From a virus, in the IMG/VR virus record IMGVR_UViG_3300047546_001721, positions 1-35,537 of that record: 35,537 nucleotides of DNA; one strand, given 5' to 3'. Both the position numbers and the translations under genes were made by a program. Shown piece by piece: positions 22,844-32,329 of this stretch (the stretch's first letter is position 1; each line of letters opens with the position of its first letter). Below the pieces are notes generated by a model. The model searched no databases. It was not told the DNA's origin and saw only the letters and a list, made by a program, of their open reading frames with translations.

Positions 22844-23679
22844 TCAGTCTTTTCTTTTTCAGCAAGATAGTCCATATGAACATCAATTTCTTCTTTAGTT
22901 GGTTCTACCTTTACTCCATTTCTAAATACAAGGTTTCCACCATAAATATCTGCGTCTACTCTTTTCTTTTCCATTTCTAACCACTTTATAGCCCCATACT
23001 CTATTTGATTAGCAAGCCATTCTGGCGAACCTGGATATGGGTAGATCATAAAGTTTCTAATTAGATATTTGTTGCCCCTAGTTGCTGTTCTTACTCCATG
23101 ATAATATGGCTCTCCAGAAGGGAACACCATAATATCTCCAGCTTCTGGCTTATAGGCTGGAACAAATTCTCCATCTACATAGAACTCAATTTCTCCACCT
23201 TCGTAATCATCGTTTATGTAAACTGTGCATGTTAAGAAAAACTGTCTACCAGGCATGTCTTTTTCGCTTTGCTTAAAGTCTGTATGATATTGCATAGTTA
23301 GATTATTTTTTAAGGTATCTACGTTTGTATCATATTTACAAAATGAAGAAGATCCAAGCTCACATTTTTCTGGCAACTCTACATTATATTTTGCGATATA
23401 GTCTTTTATTGCAATATTATATGCATCATAAACAGTTTCTGCTGCCCAGTATTCCTTATCAAATGTTTCATTTTTACCTAATTGATCTTGAACTGCACCT
23501 TTAAATTTTGTACTAGCGTATGTACCAAAAGCACTCCATCTAGTCCACTCATTAAAATAATGCTCTCCAGTACCATTTTCAGTTGATTTAATAACTTCAA
23601 AAATTTCTTTGTGGTCTGGCAGCAAACCCTTATATACCTCTATTCTAGGGTATAAAGTTTTTGTTGTATAGTCTGGCAT
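22837..23679 (-). CDS. 2OG-Fe(II) dioxygenase, prolyl 4-hydroxylase-like (enzyme 4)
   Basis: 280 residues from ATG 23679, which forms TAATG with the upstream stop and has AAGGAAC before it. A longer reading from TTG 23718 would overlap the neighbour by 40 nt without a ribosome site. Active site: H132 and D134 (QYHTDF), H194 (PYYHGV), K204 (GNKYLIRNF). The core reads TCTVYINDDYEGGEIEFYVDGEFVPAYKPEAGDIMVFPSGEP. It is the largest of the six, with an added N-terminal helical half and a C-terminal tail of about 65 residues. The SSSFCKYDTNVDTLK stretch before the HxD is distinctive and may shape the substrate pocket. Confidence 0.9.
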   Translation of the reverse strand: MPDYTTKTLYPRIEVYKGLLPDHKEIFEVIKSTENGTGEHYFNEWTRWSAFGTYASTKFKGAVQDQLGKNETFDKEYWAAETVYDAYNIAIKDYIAKYNVELPEKCELGSSSFCKYDTNVDTLKNNLTMQYHTDFKQSEKDMPGRQFFLTCTVYINDDYEGGEIEFYVDGEFVPAYKPEAGDIMVFPSGEPYYHGVRTATRGNKYLIRNFMIYPYPGSPEWLANQIEYGAIKWLEMEKKRVDADIYGGNLVFRNGVKVEPTKEEIDVHMDYLAEKEKTEC

Positions 23680-24347
23680 TACTTGTTCCTTCCTAATTTT
23701 GTAATTGTCCAAAACCAAGGGGATGTATATCTTACTCCACTTGTAATTACATCTACTCCATGAATATAATTTAAATCTCCTGGAAAAAAGTAAGCAGCTT
23801 TTTTCTTAGGTCTAATTGCAACATCTTGTTTTGGAAAATGTAGTCTGCCACCTTCGTAATCATCGTTTAAATAAAATATTGTTCCAAGGTCATACCATGG
23901 GAAGTTTCCAGGCTTTCCAGCATCAGGACCTTCATGCAACTCTTTATCTGCATGTGGCCACTGCATAGATCCTACTGGCCATCTTACTAAACATGGCCCT
24001 GTTGGCAAAACTTCTACATCAAAATGATCCTCAATAACTGGTCTAAGTCTTTCAATAATTTCTTCTAGCATAGTTACAACTTTTGGATCACCCTTTTCTA
24101 AAGATGCTTTTGTGGCTACACGATCTTTCCAAACATTATGCTGATAGATAATAGTACCATTTTCATTATATACATCTTCTCCGCCATCCCAAATGGTATT
24201 ATTCTTTGTATAGTTTAATAAATACTCACACTCTTCATCTGTTAAAAAATTTTCTACCTCAACAATATGTTCTTTACCTGAACCAAAATATCCAGATGGA
24301 GTTATTGATGTTCTATGATCTCTTATGTCTGATATACTCTTATGCAT
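23679..24347 (-). CDS. 2OG-Fe(II) dioxygenase, prolyl 4-hydroxylase-like (enzyme 3)
   Basis: 222 residues; ATG 24347 with AGGAGA upstream. It opens with HIVEVENFLTDEECEYLLNYTKNN, the N-terminal signature of this hydroxylase group. Active site: H132 and D134 (QWPHADKE), H196 (NYIHGV), and Arg206 (SGVRYT) as the 2-oxoglutarate anchor. A loop of about 20 residues rich in Gly/Pro (EGPDAGKPGNFPWYDL) separates the HxD from the next strand FYLNDDYEGGRLHFPKQDVAIRPKKKAAYFFPGD. The loop is longer than in the first two enzymes, so substrate choice probably differs. It directly follows the two DUF6065-like genes. Confidence 0.9.
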   Translation of the reverse strand: MHKSISDIRDHRTSITPSGYFGSGKEHIVEVENFLTDEECEYLLNYTKNNTIWDGGEDVYNENGTIIYQHNVWKDRVATKASLEKGDPKVVTMLEEIIERLRPVIEDHFDVEVLPTGPCLVRWPVGSMQWPHADKELHEGPDAGKPGNFPWYDLGTIFYLNDDYEGGRLHFPKQDVAIRPKKKAAYFFPGDLNYIHGVDVITSGVRYTSPWFWTITKLGRNK

Positions 24348-24355
24348 TTTTTCTC

Positions 24356-25069
24356 CTATTCATATTTTTTTGGAACCCAAGTTTCTCTTTTATAGACTCC
24401 ACCTTCTGTTGTTCTATAAATTGCTGTGTGCGCCTCATGCCTTTTTATCATTTCTTCTTCAGTAAAAAGGTTAAATTCAGATGTCCAAGTTTCTCTCTTA
24501 TATGGAATAACTTGAACATACGGGGTTCCCTTTTTAATAATCCCAGTAAAACCCTCACGAATGAAAAACGGTATAAGACCTGGTGCCCCATACTTATCAC
24601 TATCAATTATACCTGCTGTTGTTAAAAAAGGTAACTCAAAGTGATTTATAGGTTGAACTACAAGTGCACTATATCCTTCTGGTAGAGTAAATCCCCAATT
24701 TGGATACCAATGATAGCCAAATTTATAATATCCTTCTGGATAATGAAATTCACCCATATGAGGTCTTATTTCACAAAAACCTTCAAATCCCAATTCGGGC
24801 TGAGCATAAACAACACCTTCATATTCAAATACGCTAATGTCGCAAGGAGTTGTAAACATATAACCAGAAGTAAATATATCATGTAAGGCTGGACAAGACT
24901 TAAACCCTGGACCTTTTTCGTTTTCTGGTGGCATCTTAATTGGTACGCCATTTTCATCAGTCCAGTATTTGCTTGCATTTTTAAACCATTCTGGGGTTGT
25001 TTTTTTAGCAGGCTTTGGAACTGTGTTTTCTGTGTTATATGATCTGTTAGAATTAAAAGTTATTTTCAT
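24356..25069 (-). CDS. DUF6065-like paralogue 2, function unknown
   Basis: 237 residues, coupled to the upstream gene (TAATG). It lacks the HxD...H...K/R set and so is not a 2OG dioxygenase. Landmarks: TTPEWFKNASKYW (24-36), KSCPALHDIFTSGYMFTTPCDISVF (57-81), GYSALVVQPINHFELPF (132-148), IKKGTPYVQVIPY (178-190). The same landmarks, in the same order and spacing class, occur in the neighbouring gene, so the two are divergent copies of one fold. Similar proteins occur beside oxygenase genes in aquatic phages (recalled, not searched). The N-terminal 'P.WFK......' opening is typical of that phage group. An enzyme, a substrate-recognition partner or a carrier are all possible. Confidence 0.8.
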   Translation of the reverse strand: MKITFNSNRSYNTENTVPKPAKKTTPEWFKNASKYWTDENGVPIKMPPENEKGPGFKSCPALHDIFTSGYMFTTPCDISVFEYEGVVYAQPELGFEGFCEIRPHMGEFHYPEGYYKFGYHWYPNWGFTLPEGYSALVVQPINHFELPFLTTAGIIDSDKYGAPGLIPFFIREGFTGIIKKGTPYVQVIPYKRETWTSEFNLFTEEEMIKRHEAHTAIYRTTEGGVYKRETWVPKKYE

Positions 25070-25782
25070 TAAAACTTCTTTTCTACATTTAGTCTAATTG
25101 CTTTTACTTCGTGTTCTCCAAGCTTATTCCCCATATAGTCAACAGCATCTCTATAGTAATCTGTCCATTCTCCAGCTGCATTAGCTTTTGCTGCTGCTTC
25201 CATAGCTCCTTCTAATGTGAGAGGAATTTCTCTTTCAATTGTAGGAGCCATGTGGCCTGGATACATATTTGCTGTTGAGTTATTTAACTCAGTAAGAGAT
25301 ATTGGCATTATTGCAATAAAAGGTTCATTGGCTTTAATTGTTATTGGAGAAAATGGTTTTGTAATTTTCCATGCAACAGTTAATGGCCCCTCAAAAAATG
25401 ATGAACTTAATAATGTTGTTACTGCTTGAGCTCCATCAACAAATTGATTTGGTACTGGAAATGAAAGCAGCGTGTAATTTGGATCAGTTCTAAATATTAA
25501 ATCAGTTTCAAAATTAATTACTGCGTGTCCTCTACTTGTTTTACAATATTTTTCTCCTGCTAGTACCTTTACATTATCTGGATAAGTTGTTATCTGACCG
25601 TCCCACATAAATGTAATATCTTCTGGAAAAGAAAGTCCCCACCCTAATTGATTGCTTAGGGTAAGAGGAAAGCATCTATATGCATGTTTTTCTGCAGTAG
25701 CGTCCATCCAATCACGCTTTGCAGAAAGAGGAGCTATGTTTGCTGCATTATCAGAAACTTTATAAACATTTAAATTTATCAT
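25069..25782 (-). CDS. DUF6065-like paralogue 1, function unknown
   Basis: 237 residues; its ATG overlaps the upstream TGA (ATGA). SAKRDWMDATAEKHAYRCFPLTLSNQLGWGLSFPEDITFMWDG (20-62) matches the DUF6065 opening as I recall it: R-x-W-M-x-x-T, then R-C-x-P-L, then N-x-x-G-W. Later landmarks NYTLLSFPVPNQFVDG (102-117) and IKANEPFIAIMPI (149-161) align with those of the next gene. The C-terminus is helical (EGAMEAAAKANAAGEWTDYYRDAVDYM). There is no metal triad of the dioxygenase type. Sitting inside a run of hydroxylases suggests a joint pathway, but no reaction can be named. Confidence 0.8.
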   Translation of the reverse strand: MINLNVYKVSDNAANIAPLSAKRDWMDATAEKHAYRCFPLTLSNQLGWGLSFPEDITFMWDGQITTYPDNVKVLAGEKYCKTSRGHAVINFETDLIFRTDPNYTLLSFPVPNQFVDGAQAVTTLLSSSFFEGPLTVAWKITKPFSPITIKANEPFIAIMPISLTELNNSTANMYPGHMAPTIEREIPLTLEGAMEAAAKANAAGEWTDYYRDAVDYMGNKLGEHEVKAIRLNVEKKF

Positions 25783-26519
25783 AAAACTCTCTGTTCTGCT
25801 GGCACAAACTTCTTTCCTTCTGTTATATGGTTATATTCGTAACTTGCTTCTATCTCTCTATACAAAGGAGTATGTGGAGCTTCCTGATAATCTAACATAG
25901 TTACTACAGAATATTTTACTCCAGATTTTACTGGCATAGCTGCATGAGAATAAATAAATGATGATGGAAATAAATATAAATCTCCAGCTTTTGGTTTTAC
26001 ATTAACGCCAAGTTTATCAAAAAATAATTCTCCGCCTTCGTAGTCATCATTTATATATCCTACTGAAGATAAGACGCATACATACGAATAACCATGATCT
26101 GAATGTACTTGAAAGTGTTGATCTTTTGCATATTTAATAAAGTTAAAAGACTCCCAATAGTTCAATGGTGGAAGTTGAAACATTTTCATATAATCAGCTA
26201 CTGCTGCTAATTGTAGCCCTTTTGCTTCTCTCCAAATTTGTCTTAATTCTATTTCATCTTCAGTAAAATCTTCTGGTTCAACATGCACACCGTTTCCTAG
26301 CATTAAAGATCCGCCATTATTTTCTTTAATCTTAAAATCCCAAGCATCCCTATAATCTTTATTTAAGTTATCATATCCAACCTGAGCTAGGTTCCAATGC
26401 TTCTTTCCTTCTGTCTTTGAAAGAACAGCCTCTAGCCTTTCAGCAAATCTATATTCTTTTGGAAACACATTGCGGTAAACAATAATTCCAGGATATATGG
26501 TTTCAGCATTTGGTAACAT
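25779..26519 (-). CDS. 2OG-Fe(II) dioxygenase, prolyl 4-hydroxylase-like (enzyme 2)
   Basis: 246 residues. Active site: H139 and D141 (FQVHSDHG), H192 (FIYSHAAMP), K202 (SGVKYSVVTMLDY). The core GYINDDYEGGELFFDKLGVNVKPKAGDLYLFPSSFIYSHAAMPVKSG is nearly superimposable on that of the upstream enzyme, as are the N-terminal AETIYPGIIVYRNVF and the post-core LDY. The two are recent paralogues within the cluster. Compared with its sister it carries an insertion of about 25 residues before the HxD and a longer C-terminal tail. Ligands are intact, so activity is expected. Confidence 0.92.
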   Translation of the reverse strand: MLPNAETIYPGIIVYRNVFPKEYRFAERLEAVLSKTEGKKHWNLAQVGYDNLNKDYRDAWDFKIKENNGGSLMLGNGVHVEPEDFTEDEIELRQIWREAKGLQLAAVADYMKMFQLPPLNYWESFNFIKYAKDQHFQVHSDHGYSYVCVLSSVGYINDDYEGGELFFDKLGVNVKPKAGDLYLFPSSFIYSHAAMPVKSGVKYSVVTMLDYQEAPHTPLYREIEASYEYNHITEGKKFVPAEQRVL

Positions 26520-26525
26520 TTTATC

Positions 26526-27146
26526 TCATTTCTTTTTATGTTTATTGTCTACATAGTCGTCATACTCTTTTGTATGAGCATCGTCATTATAGTCTAGCAT
26601 AGTAACAAAACAATACTTAATTCCAGATTCTACTGGTAAGGCAACATGTGAATAAATAAAAGATGATGGAAAGATTATTAAATCTCCAAATTTAGGTTGA
26701 ATAAATACATCTAGTTTTGGAAATAATAACCCGCCACCAACATAATCATCATTTGGATACCCAACTAAAGATACTGCACACTTATAAGACCACCCGTCAT
26801 CTGCATGCTCTTGGAAAAATTGATTTGGATAATATTTTATAATATTAGTCCATTCCCAAAAATCCATTTTAATTGAGTACATGTTACAAAAATCTTGTAC
26901 TGGCTCATATTGAACATTATATATATCTTTATATAAGTCATGGTCTTTGCCTAAAGCAGACAATTTAAAATCTTGGCAATCTCTATAACTTAAATCGGTT
27001 TCTTCTAAAGATACCTGAGACCTATTCCAACCTGCTTCTTTATTTTCTATTACTTTTTCAATTCTAGAAATAAGATTAAGATCTTTTTTAAAGACGTCTG
27101 GGTATCTCCAGATCCCTGGATATATTTGCTCTTTATTGTAAATCAT
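26526..27146 (-). CDS. 2OG-Fe(II) dioxygenase, prolyl 4-hydroxylase-like (enzyme 1)
   Basis: 206 residues, first gene of the oxygenase cluster and directly downstream of the FFxPP/Hint gene. Active site: H114 and D116 (FFQEHADDG), H167 (FIYSHVALP), K177 (SGIKYCFVTMLDY). The strand GYPNDDYVGGGLLFPKLDVFIQPKFGDLIIFPSS is the family core. ATG 27146 has no ribosome site; a consensus-like promoter lies 7 nt upstream (27182-27154), so a leaderless mRNA is likely. Prolyl 4-hydroxylase-type enzymes modify proline in peptide repeats in other systems; whether this one does is not shown. Confidence 0.92.
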   Translation of the reverse strand: MIYNKEQIYPGIWRYPDVFKKDLNLISRIEKVIENKEAGWNRSQVSLEETDLSYRDCQDFKLSALGKDHDLYKDIYNVQYEPVQDFCNMYSIKMDFWEWTNIIKYYPNQFFQEHADDGWSYKCAVSLVGYPNDDYVGGGLLFPKLDVFIQPKFGDLIIFPSSFIYSHVALPVESGIKYCFVTMLDYNDDAHTKEYDDYVDNKHKKK

Positions 27147-27153
27147 ATTGCTT

Positions 27154-27182
27154 ATAATAACATTTAATTATTAATCAGTCAA
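27154..27182 (-). promoter_or_regulatory. Leaderless promoter of the dioxygenase cluster
   Basis: -35 TTGACT at 27182-27177 (5 of 6 consensus), 17-bp spacer, -10 TATTAT at 27159-27154 (5 of 6), then exactly 7 nt to ATG 27146, which has no ribosome site. The -35 lies in the final codons (Leu-Thr) of the Hint gene. It is the best promoter match in the window and would let the enzymes be expressed independently of the fibre operon. Confidence 0.7.
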
Positions 27183-28781
27183 TGATTTTATAGCACATCC
27201 ATTATAGGCTAACATTGATTCAGCAACAATTAAGCCCCATGGCTCTCTGTATATTAAATATACATCAGTTTTTTTAGGTAATGTTTGAATTGATTCAATT
27301 TTAATATGTTCAAGCTTACCATCAATATAAACCAACATTTCATCGCCAGTCTCTATATCAATAGTAGCTGGAACTATATATTTATGATTTCTTTTTATAA
27401 TAATCTGTTCATTTTGAGATAAATCATATTTTTCATCATCATTAATTCTTACAATATAATCATATTCTCTTTTTTCAATATGGAATACTTTTGATTCAAG
27501 AATTTCTGGCTCTGATAATTCTTTTTGTGACCAAATAACTGATTCATAAATACAATCTTGAGTAACAACTCCAAATGAACAATTTTCATCACCCTTTGGA
27601 AATTCTTTAAACATAACTGTTACTAAATTATCATCTATTACTATGTCTTTAGCCTTCTTATATCCTTCTGCCGTCAAAACATTTGTTTCAGCTGGTATGC
27701 AGAAAGTTGGTGGCGCAAAGAATCTTGGTGGAGAGAAGAATCCTGGTGGCGCAAAGAATCTTGGTGGGGAGAAGAATGCTGGAGGAGAGAAGAATCCTGG
27801 CGGAGAAAAGAATCCTGGTGGGGAGAAGAATCCTGGTGGCGCAAAGAATCTTGGTGGGGAGAAGAATAGTGGTGGAGAGAAAAAGTTTGGTGGCGTAAAG
27901 AAGTTAGGCGGCGCAAAGAAATTTGGCGGCGCAAAGAAGCTTGGCGGCGCAAAGAAATTAGGTGGAGCAAAGAATAGTGGTGGCGCAAAGAAGTTAGGTG
28001 GTGCAAAGAAGTTGGGTGGCGCAAAGAAGTTAGGAGGCGCAAAGAAGTTAGGAGGCGCAAAGAAATTTGGTGGGGCAAAAAAGTTAGGTGGTGCAAAGAA
28101 GCTTGGTGGGGAGAAGAATGTTGTTACGGATCCACTTGATGCTGGTAAAGATGGTCCATTTGCATTATGTGCAACTACTGTATAAACCTGAGTAGTTCCC
28201 ATTGTTTCTCTAATACTAATTGTAGTTGCTGGTGGATTTCCAACAACTTCATAAGGAGAAGCAAGTCCTCCTGGCTGAGTTGTAGTGTCCGAAGAAGTTA
28301 TAACATATTTAGTTAATGGTTTTCCTCCGCTTGTAGAAGCGTTCCATGTAACAACATCTTGACCTCTATTGTCTGCCTGTGTATGTCCTGGGCCAGTTGT
28401 TGTAGATGAAGCAGTAACCCCAGTAGGTGCTGACGGAACAGTTGTAAATGTGGCTGGCTGACTTGGATCTGATGGGACAGATGTTCCATTTACATTTGTT
28501 GCTGTTACTGTTGCTGTTCCCGTTGCGCCTTGTGGTATTCCAACAATTGTTATTGGCGATGAGGTTCCAAATTCTGTGAATGTTCCTTGTGCTCCACAAT
28601 TAATTACAGCTGTATAGCTTACAACTGGTAACTGATTTGGTGGATAATCAAAAGTAACTACACCTGCAGCATTATTAAAAGGTCTGTTTGTTCCTACATC
28701 TGTTACAACTACGTTGATTGGTGGAACTGGCATTTCAAATTCGCCAGAGCTTTGCGTTTTACGACCAACCTTTTTTGCCAC
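27171..28781 (-). CDS. Fn3/Ig-like protein with 23 FFxPPx repeats and C-terminal Hint domain
   Basis: 536 residues; GTG start with AGAAAGG upstream. Residues about 18-115 and 116-220 are two Ig/Fn3-like domains (PPINVVVTDVGTNRP...; VPSAPTGVTASSTTTGPG...TQVYTVVAHNANGPS). Residues 222-359 are 23 contiguous hexapeptides F-F-(A/S/T)-P-P-x. Residues 361-527 read as a Hint/intein-like domain: Cys361 opens CIPAETNVLTAEGYKKAKDI (block A), IETGDEMLVY (475-484) holds the usual Gly-Asp, and the end VYLIYREPWGLIVAESMLAYN resembles blocks F and G, with Asn527. The block-B His is replaced (SQNE, 455-458) and the penultimate His is Tyr526, so self-cleavage may be altered or lost. Nine residues (GCAIKSLTD) follow. 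It is a virion-type protein by neighbourhood, with no signal peptide. Confidence 0.88.
   Translation of the reverse strand: MAKKVGRKTQSSGEFEMPVPPINVVVTDVGTNRPFNNAAGVVTFDYPPNQLPVVSYTAVINCGAQGTFTEFGTSSPITIVGIPQGATGTATVTATNVNGTSVPSDPSQPATFTTVPSAPTGVTASSTTTGPGHTQADNRGQDVVTWNASTSGGKPLTKYVITSSDTTTQPGGLASPYEVVGNPPATTISIRETMGTTQVYTVVAHNANGPSLPASSGSVTTFFSPPSFFAPPNFFAPPNFFAPPNFFAPPNFFAPPNFFAPPNFFAPPLFFAPPNFFAPPSFFAPPNFFAPPNFFTPPNFFSPPLFFSPPRFFAPPGFFSPPGFFSPPGFFSPPAFFSPPRFFAPPGFFSPPRFFAPPTFCIPAETNVLTAEGYKKAKDIVIDDNLVTVMFKEFPKGDENCSFGVVTQDCIYESVIWSQKELSEPEILESKVFHIEKREYDYIVRINDDEKYDLSQNEQIIIKRNHKYIVPATIDIETGDEMLVYIDGKLEHIKIESIQTLPKKTDVYLIYREPWGLIVAESMLAYNGCAIKSLTD
27705..28118 (-). repeat. Tandem 18-bp coding repeat, 23 copies, encoding FF(A/S/T)PPx
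   Basis: 23 in-frame copies of an 18-bp unit (414 bp). The first six residues after the Fn3 part are FFSPPS and the last before Cys361 are FFAPPT. Copies 2-13 mostly encode FFAPPN; copies 14-23 mostly encode FF(S/A)PP(G/R/L/A). Neighbouring units are nearly identical in DNA, for example two successive units around 28020-28060, which suggests recent unit duplication. Copy number may vary between relatives. Confidence 0.97.
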
Positions 28782-29308: not shown

Positions 29309-32300
29309 TTATGCCTGAGCTTCTGTCCAGGATAGTCGTCCGAACACAGATGCTGTCTGGCTACCAAGATTTTGTACAACAATTGTCAAAGTATCTGGTC
29401 CGTCTGGATAGATGTTAGCATTTGAGTTAGCTGAACCTCCTCCAATAATTGAGTTTCCAAGATCTCTAACTGTTGATAGATCAATTGAAGATGCATTTGA
29501 TCCTAAGAAGAAACCACCTGTAGTTTCTCCACCAGATATTGTTATGTTACCTGCTGAGCTATAATCTGCAATCTGTGCAAGAGATGAGTTTGCAACTCCA
29601 GAAACGTTACCGACAGCATTTGTCCATGCAACTGCTGAGCTTGGTAAACCATTTAGAATTGCAGTAACCAATAGTTGTGGAGTTCCTGTAGATGTTGTTG
29701 CGGCAACATCCAAAGCTCTTAATGTTAACTGCATTCTATTAATAAGTTCTCTTTGTCCAAAGGCTGCTGCAATACCATTATCTACAGATGGTGCTACACG
29801 AATTGAGAACAATGCTCTGGATGAACCAGCAGAAATTGATGTAGCAGTTCTCTGTCCGTATGTAAATACGAGAGACTTATCATCATCATATCTTCCGTCC
29901 ATAATAACTGAGGTACCCCAGTGTGATATAGAAGCTGCAAATGATGGGTAAGCCAACTCAACCATTGTTGGTGCTGTTGCAATATATGTAAAGAGTTGTG
30001 CTGATGTAGCTCCCATTGGAGAAACAATTACTCCTGTTGGATTTGCTGTCAAAGCGGCTTTGCTGAACTGTATTGTTAAGTTATTTATATTAGATATAAA
30101 TGTTCCTTCTGGGAAGGAGTCTGAAATTACTCTTTGTCCAACCTGAAGTCCAGTTGCATCAGCAACAGTTCCTGTACTGGCTCCTGCTAAAATTGTAACA
30201 CTTAGGTTTGCATTTCCTGCACGACCTCTTGTTAATCCAGTAAATGATGTTGCAGACTTTGCAGAATAATTCATATATTCATATGTAGTTGCATTTCTAA
30301 CAACTAATGTTCCGCTATTTGGGAAACCTTCAGTTGATCTTACTGTAAGAGCTGTATCTGTAGTTAATACATCCTGAGTGATAATTGTGTATGGAGGCAT
30401 TGTAGAGGATTCGTATCTACCTGGCAAGTTACCTGAACGCATATACGCTTCTGTATTTACGTTGTTGTTAGGCATCTTGTGGCAATAAATTACGTCACCT
30501 TTAGGGCCTCTCACACCCCAACGAATAAATCCTGCACCGTACCATGTATAGTCAATATAGAACATCTGCATCTTTGAAAGATCAATGTTATATTGTGATG
30601 GTCCAGTTCCGTCTAACTTATCTAAATTAAAGTCAGACTGTGGAATCCTTTTTTCTTGTGTCTTTGAAACAATGCAATATGTTGCGCTTGCGCCACGATA
30701 TGCTGGAGTGATTGTTAAAGAGGTATCTGTTGCAATATCTTGAACCTTGTATGACTGACCTCTGATAACAATAAAGTCTCCTGGAATTAATTGCTTTGAG
30801 AAATATGTTGGGAACTCTACGCTTGTCTGCAAAACTGTTGCAGAGCCGTTAGTAACAGTTACTTTACCAGAAAGTTGGAAAGTTGAATTTCTTCTAACTG
30901 CATATAACTTAGTTCCGTCATACTCCCAATATAGACCATTTTGGTTATCAAATACACCAAGTCTATTTTGGCATCCCCACCATGCTTCAATTGAAGCATA
31001 AAATTCACCAGTTGCAACTGTTGTTGTTGGGACGCTTAACGCTGTATATTCAAACTTATCAGCACTAACGATGTTTGTAATTGTAAATGTTCCATTATAA
31101 GCTGACTGATCACATCCACCAATCTTTACAATTGTTCCTGGATTTAAATTGTGCTTTTCTTTTGTTTGAACAGTTACGGTTGTTGTTCCATTACTTGTAA
31201 TGTTTTCAATTCCAGCATATGGCTTAAGAATTGTACCAGATGACATCTGCAAGCCTTTACCTGATTGGTAACGGAAATAACGACGTGTTTGACGAATACA
31301 TTGTGCATAGTTTGAGCCAGCATTTGTACCAAACAAAACACCACCATCATGTGGTCTATGGAAGAATGAAGACTGTGGTCTTACATAAATTGAAATACCG
31401 CCTCCAATTGTTCCTGTTGGGACAGCATCATGATAGAATGCAAATGATGTGGCGCTAAGAATTTGAGCAACTTCTTGATTTCCATTTGGTGGATTAGTTG
31501 TTGCTGTTGCACCCAATACAACAATCTCATTGCCTAGAGCAAGACCATGAGGAATTGTTGTTGTTGCAACTACTCTACGACCAGAGTATGTTAGAGTTGC
31601 AGAAGCACCAATTTGTGCTCCGCTAAACAATACACCTTCTTGAATAATTGTTTTATTAGGATCTAGAATTTGAGTAATTGAAGTTCTGTTTCTTGCGGAG
31701 GCAGTGTATGTAAATGAGTTGCTTCCTCCACCGCTTTCAATAATAAAGTTACCATTAGCAATTTGCAAGAAGGTATCAATAACATAAATAGGTGTTCCAT
31801 TTGCTGGAGCAGTTCCTGAAGAAAGTGTTACTGTAACAATTCTTGAATCTTGAGGTATTGAAATAGAAGAAACGTTAGAAATTGGGGTTGGTCTTGCATA
31901 TGCAAATGGTCTATTGTTATATAAACCAAGATTTTCCCATTTTGAGACCTGTGTTCCATACTCGAAGTCTGTATCAATAAGTGCCTGTGGAGTTGTTACA
32001 CGGAACTTATTTGTTGGATCCAGTTGTGTTTCTGCTGGAGTAAAGCTTTCATTAAATGTATCAATTGTAAACTGAAGCTTATCAGTTGAAGACATAGATG
32101 CTGTGTTAAATTCAAGCACCATTGTGGTATTTTCTACCATGTTTGAATCAGTTGTAGCTGAGTAGGAAGTTGTTCCTAGGCTAGGATCTGAAAAATTATA
32201 AATAACCTGGTTTGTGGTTACGTTTGTAATAAGAAGCAATCTTTCTTTTAAGATTGTCTTCGGAATTGAAATAGTCCGTGTTGACGGAGTAAACGTATAA

Positions 32301-32329
32301 GACGTTTCGAGTAATACTTTTCTTGCCAT
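29309..32329 (-). CDS. Large virion structural protein, fibre/baseplate type
   Basis: 1006 residues; ATG with TAGGAGA upstream, 3 nt after the preceding stop. Beta-rich Ser/Thr/Asn composition, no signal peptide. Distinct segments: an N-terminal beta domain (1-110), then YVIDTFLQIANGNFIIESGGGSNSFTYTA, then FFHRPHDGGVLFGTNAGSNYAQCIRQTRRYFRYQSGKGLQMSSGT (about 320-365). The last is a phrase I associate with large structural proteins of marine T4-like phages. Further on, MFYIDYTWYGAGFIRWGVRGPKGDVIYCHKM and the C-terminal GPDTLTIVVQNLGSQTASVFGRLSWTEAQA also fit that family. It probably forms a fibre or baseplate-associated assembly with the flanking fibre genes. Exact role unknown. Confidence 0.75.
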   Translation of the reverse strand: MARKVLLETSYTFTPSTRTISIPKTILKERLLLITNVTTNQVIYNFSDPSLGTTSYSATTDSNMVENTTMVLEFNTASMSSTDKLQFTIDTFNESFTPAETQLDPTNKFRVTTPQALIDTDFEYGTQVSKWENLGLYNNRPFAYARPTPISNVSSISIPQDSRIVTVTLSSGTAPANGTPIYVIDTFLQIANGNFIIESGGGSNSFTYTASARNRTSITQILDPNKTIIQEGVLFSGAQIGASATLTYSGRRVVATTTIPHGLALGNEIVVLGATATTNPPNGNQEVAQILSATSFAFYHDAVPTGTIGGGISIYVRPQSSFFHRPHDGGVLFGTNAGSNYAQCIRQTRRYFRYQSGKGLQMSSGTILKPYAGIENITSNGTTTVTVQTKEKHNLNPGTIVKIGGCDQSAYNGTFTITNIVSADKFEYTALSVPTTTVATGEFYASIEAWWGCQNRLGVFDNQNGLYWEYDGTKLYAVRRNSTFQLSGKVTVTNGSATVLQTSVEFPTYFSKQLIPGDFIVIRGQSYKVQDIATDTSLTITPAYRGASATYCIVSKTQEKRIPQSDFNLDKLDGTGPSQYNIDLSKMQMFYIDYTWYGAGFIRWGVRGPKGDVIYCHKMPNNNVNTEAYMRSGNLPGRYESSTMPPYTIITQDVLTTDTALTVRSTEGFPNSGTLVVRNATTYEYMNYSAKSATSFTGLTRGRAGNANLSVTILAGASTGTVADATGLQVGQRVISDSFPEGTFISNINNLTIQFSKAALTANPTGVIVSPMGATSAQLFTYIATAPTMVELAYPSFAASISHWGTSVIMDGRYDDDKSLVFTYGQRTATSISAGSSRALFSIRVAPSVDNGIAAAFGQRELINRMQLTLRALDVAATTSTGTPQLLVTAILNGLPSSAVAWTNAVGNVSGVANSSLAQIADYSSAGNITISGGETTGGFFLGSNASSIDLSTVRDLGNSIIGGGSANSNANIYPDGPDTLTIVVQNLGSQTASVFGRLSWTEAQA

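Follow-up and report, generated by a model that had tools for sequence, protein, structure and literature searches.

A stalk protein gene in the structural module of a viral contig

The stretch of DNA analysed here (hereafter the window; 35,537 nucleotides from a viral record) carries on its minus strand an open reading frame, positions 27171–28781, that begins at a GTG codon and encodes a stalk protein of 536 amino acids. The protein consists of (i) N-terminal beta domains, (ii) an array of FFxPP repeats, and (iii) a C-terminal Hint domain; full-length relatives share 37–73% identity with it. A structural model of the full-length protein is confident for beta domains at residues ~20–225 and for the Hint domain at residues 361–532. 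The former appear as two all-beta blocks, which we read as two beta-sandwich (Fn3-like) domains (residues 20–225; 28107–28724, minus strand). A Pfam fn3 search of the window protein gave no match; in L118 and L086, which also encode stalk proteins of the FFxPP kind, fn3 is present. The FFxPP array itself (residues 222–360; 27702–28118, minus strand) comprises about 23–24 six-residue units without confident predicted structure (pLDDT <50 for residues 229–357). A search of the open-access literature for FFAPP, FFSPP and FFGPP repeats gave no phage paper among the matches listed. A large neighbouring protein, encoded at 29309–32329, resembles virion structural proteins from myoviruses of marine Synechococcus (44–46% identity; e.g., S-PM2 and S-RSM4), which places the stalk gene within a structural module.

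Downstream of the stalk gene lies an oxygenase region (23679–27146), the first member of which is a 2OG-Fe(II) oxygenase gene at 26526–27146 (minus strand). Between the oxygenases are found a DUF6065 protein (25069–25782; E 1.7e-37) and a same-sized open reading frame of unassigned family (24356–25069), an order shared by two other contigs (L001 and L003). The oxygenase is a constant neighbour of FFxPP genes: among distinct cases with enough room, one occurs no more than 3 kb downstream in 43/44 Hint-ended and 21/26 short-ended stalk genes, compared with 1/16 control loci and 6/24 loci whose aromatic stalk lacks Pro-Pro, these cases not being independent because many of the viruses are related. 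That the enzyme acts on either the stalk or its Hint domain is hypothetical; the Pro-Pro repeats may be hydroxylated, a lead that is separate from the Hint domain discussed below.

The stalk protein ends in a predicted Hint domain

The original prediction, made from the order of intein-like blocks, was that the repeat protein ends in a Hint domain. Structure prediction, which had been named as the means of checking this, returned a Hint fold and no other: according to an AlphaFold2 model built on an alignment of 32 relatives (pLDDT 88.9, pTM 0.83), the last 176 residues of the stalk protein form a Hint domain, and matches to PDB structures agree. The best of these matches, obtained with Foldseek/VIA-align, are inteins, bacterial intein-like (BIL) domains and hedgehog proteins (Z 12–16). 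They include Tetrahymena BUBL1 BIL2 (6y75; Z 16.1, 138 aligned residues, rmsd 2.2), the Ssp DnaB M86 G-1F/H73A intein (6fre; Z 15.8), a Clostridium thermocellum BIL domain (2lwy; Z 15.7) and the hedgehog structures 6tyy (Z 15.2) and 1at0 (Z 15.1), a ranking to be read as a set of ties, since the top matches lie within 1 Z unit of each other. There are 84 PDB chains with Z of at least 8 and, among the matches listed, all are Hint structures. In the superpositions, model residue 13 (Cys361) coincides with residue 1 of the inteins and model residue 179 (Asn527) with their final Asn.

Taken alone, the window sequence gives no Pfam match for the Hint region, and phmmer returns only weak intein matches (E 0.88); the former is what would be expected if the resemblance were due to chance and no Hint domain were present. 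That explanation is contradicted by the modelling and structure searches above, and by two kinds of profile comparison. Firstly, a profile of 32 members searched against the PDB ranks inteins and BIL domains at the top (E 0.001–0.1; 4e2u 0.001, 5bkh 0.013, 2lwy 0.02). Secondly, hhalign matches the domain to its counterparts in phage NCTB (98.5%, E 1.6e-15) and in an Erwinia phage (96.2%), both of them Hint domains, with the window's S-Q-N-E458 in register with T-E-Q-H and T-H-E-H. Chance resemblance is thus already refuted at the level of the model, and we regard it as barely credible.

Catalytic positions of the window domain

The Hint domain (residues 361–527; 27201–27701, minus strand as are all features in this section) has the landmarks that were originally listed for it. 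Cys361 (27699–27701), the block A nucleophile, is structurally equivalent to intein residue 1; Gly479-Asp480 (27342–27347) follows, and Asn527 precedes a tail of nine residues, GCAIKSLTD (27174–27200), which in the translation leaves no real C-extein. One detail needs amendment: Cys361 was described as directly following the last FFAPPT unit, but a single Phe intervenes (FFAPPT-F-C). The candidate scissile bond, Phe360–Cys361, is as originally written.

Several residues that are central to intein chemistry have been replaced. In block B (27408–27419), Ser455-Gln-Asn-Glu458 stands in place of T-x-x-H, the common though not universal Hint motif, in alignments with relatives; hhalign sets Glu458 opposite the block-B His of the NCTB and Erwinia-phage domains, in line with the replacement first proposed. 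The translation likewise bears out that the residue before the final Asn is Tyr526, not His. This Tyr526-Asn527 pair (block G; 27201–27206) is mostly His-Asn in relatives outside the clade described below. Two further positions set the window domain apart: Arg512 (27246–27248), found in 29/29 FFxPP domains of the Glu class and 0/34 Gln/His sequences, and Gly516 (27234–27236), a site that holds Asp in 30/34 non-Glu relatives. The protein ends in Tyr-Asn-Gly with nine residues left, and so lacks the end of a class 1 intein (His-Asn, a +1 Cys, Ser or Thr, and a C-extein). By fold and position-1 nucleophile, the window domain is a Hint domain, and neither a class 1 intein nor a Hog domain.

A family of Hint domains at phage stalk tips

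A family was assembled from pattern scans of viral contigs for FFxPP arrays, in versions that did or did not demand a Cys, together with a Hint-only profile scan. It contains 79 distinct Hint domains that end aromatic/proline phage stalks; the window protein, with its aromatic/proline repeat stalk followed by a near-C-terminal Hint domain, belongs among them. A tblastn search of the phage collection with the window Hint domain as single query gave no match, and the NCTB and Erwinia phages were reached through an intermediate relative (L005). Scans of bacterial genomes returned chance matches only, and we found no report of Hint domains at phage stalk ends in the open-access literature.

A nucleophile occupies position 1 in 79/79 domains (Cys in 72, Ser in 7). 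When position 1 was left unspecified in the scan, Cys was found in 47/47 genuine members, the other four matches being chance; when only FFxPP repeats were required, Cys or Ser was found in 30/30 domains in which −1 is not Phe. The other catalytic positions vary. At the block-B site, 45 domains have Glu, 21 Gln and 13 His, while the last residue is Asn (66 domains), Asp (7), Ala (4) or Gly (2). Asn527 had seemed invariant among 32 sequences, a pattern that is broken in the wider set of 79.

Canonical TxxH branches occur on the same stalk type (L093, L145 and L098), and TxxH Hint domains are also present in the collagen-stalk proteins of the NCTB and Erwinia phages. Seven contigs (L098, L105, L113, L143, L163, L092 and L132) carry Ser-type stalk Hint domains that retain the block-B His and have Asp in place of the final Asn. 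A second aromatic/proline stalk, built of VFGFSPF repeats, bears the same Glu-type Hint domain (L222, L232, L236, L252 and others); in two members with this stalk (L241 and L242), the final Asn is replaced by Gly.

The Glu class is a single, conserved clade

The Glu class, which includes the window domain, is recovered as a single clade in a 63-domain tree (support 99/95). Relative to the other 34 domains, Glu replaces Gln/His458 in 29/29, Gly replaces Asp516 in 28/29 and Tyr replaces His526 in 27/29 members of this clade; Asp480 is invariant across it. Arg512 is present in 29/29, the other 34 having Ala, Thr, Val, Cys or Ile at this position; a few additional Glu-class members of the wider set have Lys or Thr.

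The Hint domain is under purifying selection, with dN/dS mostly 0.1–0.2 in pairs that are 60–95% identical. Recent decay of the catalytic residues was considered and is ruled out by this result and by residue conservation: replacement followed by renewed near-invariance (Glu458, Arg512, Gly516 and Tyr526) is unlike decay. The original prediction had left two alternatives for the window domain, active or an end cap. The replaced residues on which it turned are real, and the question is now sharper: they are conserved across the stalk-tip clade, and hence the window domain is no recent casualty.

One candidate explanation for the loss of the block-B His is the residue at −1. Large −1 residues, Phe included, restore N-terminal cleavage in the Ssp DnaB/M86 intein without block-B His (Friedel et al., PMC6333167). 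By analogy, compensation by a bulky −1 residue fits the window domain and most, but not all, of the Glu clade: the 45 Glu-class domains have Phe (32), Tyr (6), Val (2), Leu (1), Gly (3) or Ala (1) at this position, and the −1 residues of Gln-class domains include Gly, Lys, Pro and Ser. Phe(−1) as a general explanation of His loss is weakened by the Gly or Ala in 4/45 Glu-class domains, which indicates that −1 rescue is not general and not the whole story. Further, since Glu arose once, its association with Phe(−1) counts as a single event.

Alternative stalk ends

FFxPP stalks do not always end in a Hint domain. In one contig (L095, 9634–10341), the stalk is fused to a Peptidase_S74 domain at the Hint position (E 7e-10). 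Peptidase_S74 is an intramolecular chaperone that autocleaves in known phage tailspikes. Many other FFxPP stalks stop 3–10 residues past the array, near the end expected of a cleavage product. Six contigs (L007, L010, L012, L041, L064 and L073) have a Cys-rich tail of 18–20 residues (e.g., FCSFNCPYGTYCDNGKCIG) on the FFxPP stalk instead of the Hint domain.

Candidate self-processing at the stalk–Hint junction

The reading that we favour, and to which we give about an even chance, is N-terminal self-processing at Phe360–Cys361 by a rebuilt active site. Cys361 would attack the Phe360 carbonyl in an N–S acyl shift, and the thioester would then be hydrolysed to give a stalk ending in ...PPTF and a separate Hint domain. 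Glu458 would occupy the site of the former block-B His, alongside Arg512, Gly516 and Tyr526, and the bulky Phe360 may take over some of the activation normally due to His. We infer that cleavage occurs and what it would yield, as well as the parts that Glu458 and Arg512 would play and any function in stalk assembly. Two lines of argument favour self-processing. The first is that the nucleophile is retained in 79/79 domains while the C-terminal Asn varies, which points to N-terminal processing and not to splicing; judged by sequence, a negotiable His and C-terminal Asn combined with a non-negotiable nucleophile is the pattern expected if selection acts on an acyl shift at the stalk–Hint junction. 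The second is positional: an S74 domain in the Hint position, together with stalks that end soon after the array.

Conventional splicing, by an intein or a BIL domain, would account for the Hint fold and for an Asn527 so close to the C-terminus. With Gly at +1 and only nine residues past Asn527, protein splicing is unlikely; block-B and penultimate His are also absent and Asn is lost in sister groups, and we consider this reading very improbable.

A weightier alternative is that the Hint fold is catalytically dead and serves as a structural cap, an assembly (e.g., trimerisation) domain or a receptor-binding tip, with Cys, Ser, Glu, Arg and Asn conserved for packing and a new binding role. The window domain lacks all three classical Hint His residues (block B, block F and penultimate), its gene lies among virion protein genes, unrelated Cys-rich or short ends occupy the same position on other stalks, and Cys361 could be retained for a structural reason or as a disulfide partner (for instance of Cys529 in the NGC subgroup). 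What a dead cap leaves unexplained is why the nucleophile alone was never lost in 79 domains, with Ser as the sole swap, while Asn and block B drift. It is a real possibility that nonetheless falls short of probable.

Acyl transfer, in which the Phe360 thioester would be passed to a partner amine, hydroxyl or lipid in a hedgehog-like manner and so anchor the stalk covalently, draws on the hedgehog fold matches given above and on relatives that dispense with the C-terminal Asn; in addition, an acidic residue beside hedgehog Cys1 (D303) acts as general base (PMC9163320). The window protein, however, has neither a sterol-recognition-like extension nor an identified acceptor, and Glu458 occupies the block-B site rather than that of D303. 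We consider acyl transfer unlikely.

Beyond self-processing at the window junction, we tentatively put forward a broader and doubtful proposal: that a large virus-borne Hint lineage has given up the block-B His, the best-conserved residue of inteins, and performs N–S acyl chemistry by means of a conserved Glu and a co-gained Arg, thereby finishing or covalently attaching virion stalk tips. No precedent for Glu at the block-B site was found in the open-access literature.

Sixty-six of the 79 related stalk-tip Hint domains lack the block-B His, yet their nucleophile is intact and they are under purifying selection. They thus make up a naturally occurring panel for studying how the opening step of protein splicing may be activated without His. 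They also point to a candidate step in the maturation of phage stalks, in which a Hint domain takes the place occupied elsewhere by an S74 chaperone, and could possibly be a source of new tools for cleavage or ligation.

Comparison with known systems

Among the closest known counterparts are NCTB BN7874_136 ("putative phage tail protein, contains intein domain") and proteins of Erwinia phages Alexandra and SNUABM_2. Like the window protein, they have a repeat stalk leading to a terminal Hint domain with few residues after it (profile match 96–98%). They differ in having collagen repeats, TxxH, His-Asn and Gly(−1), where the window protein has FFxPP, SxxE, Tyr-Asn and Phe(−1). Directly behind the NCTB collagen-Hint gene lies a stand-alone "intein domain" open reading frame, BN7874_135 (L080, 5480–5941), without Cys at the usual Hint start. 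The Peptidase_S74 tailspike chaperone shares the position on the FFxPP stalk of L095, but is of unrelated fold.

BIL domains (2lwy) and BUBL1 BIL2 (6y75), among the closest structures, share the fold, Cys1, the final Asn and independence from a C-extein nucleophile. The window domain differs from BIL domains in lacking the block-B His and in its place at a phage stalk tip; a BIL-like anatomy fits. The hedgehog autoprocessing domain (1at0, 6tyy) has the same fold and likewise carries its functional part upstream of the Hint domain, and only N-terminal processing would be shared. Hedgehog has a sterol-recognition region, whereas the window protein has none and ends nine residues past Asn527. Hedgehog requires T326 and H329 and is inactive without the block-B His (PMC9163320); its general base D303 offers a loose analogy at best to Glu458, which lies at a different site.

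In a 2014 intein review (PMC4031507), inteins lacking the block-B His numbered two, and one of these was a pseudogene. The Tko CDC21-1 intein (PMC4031507, PMC6333167) is, like the window domain, natural, without block-B His and bulky at −1; unlike our reading of the window domain, it splices, and it relies on a Lys that lies outside the conserved motifs. The Ssp DnaB M86 G(−1)F/H73A variant (6fre, PMC6333167) combines, as does the window domain, Phe(−1) with absence of the block-B His, and N-terminal cleavage of such combinations has been demonstrated in Ssp DnaB. That variant is engineered and has Ala at block B, while the window domain is natural and has Glu.
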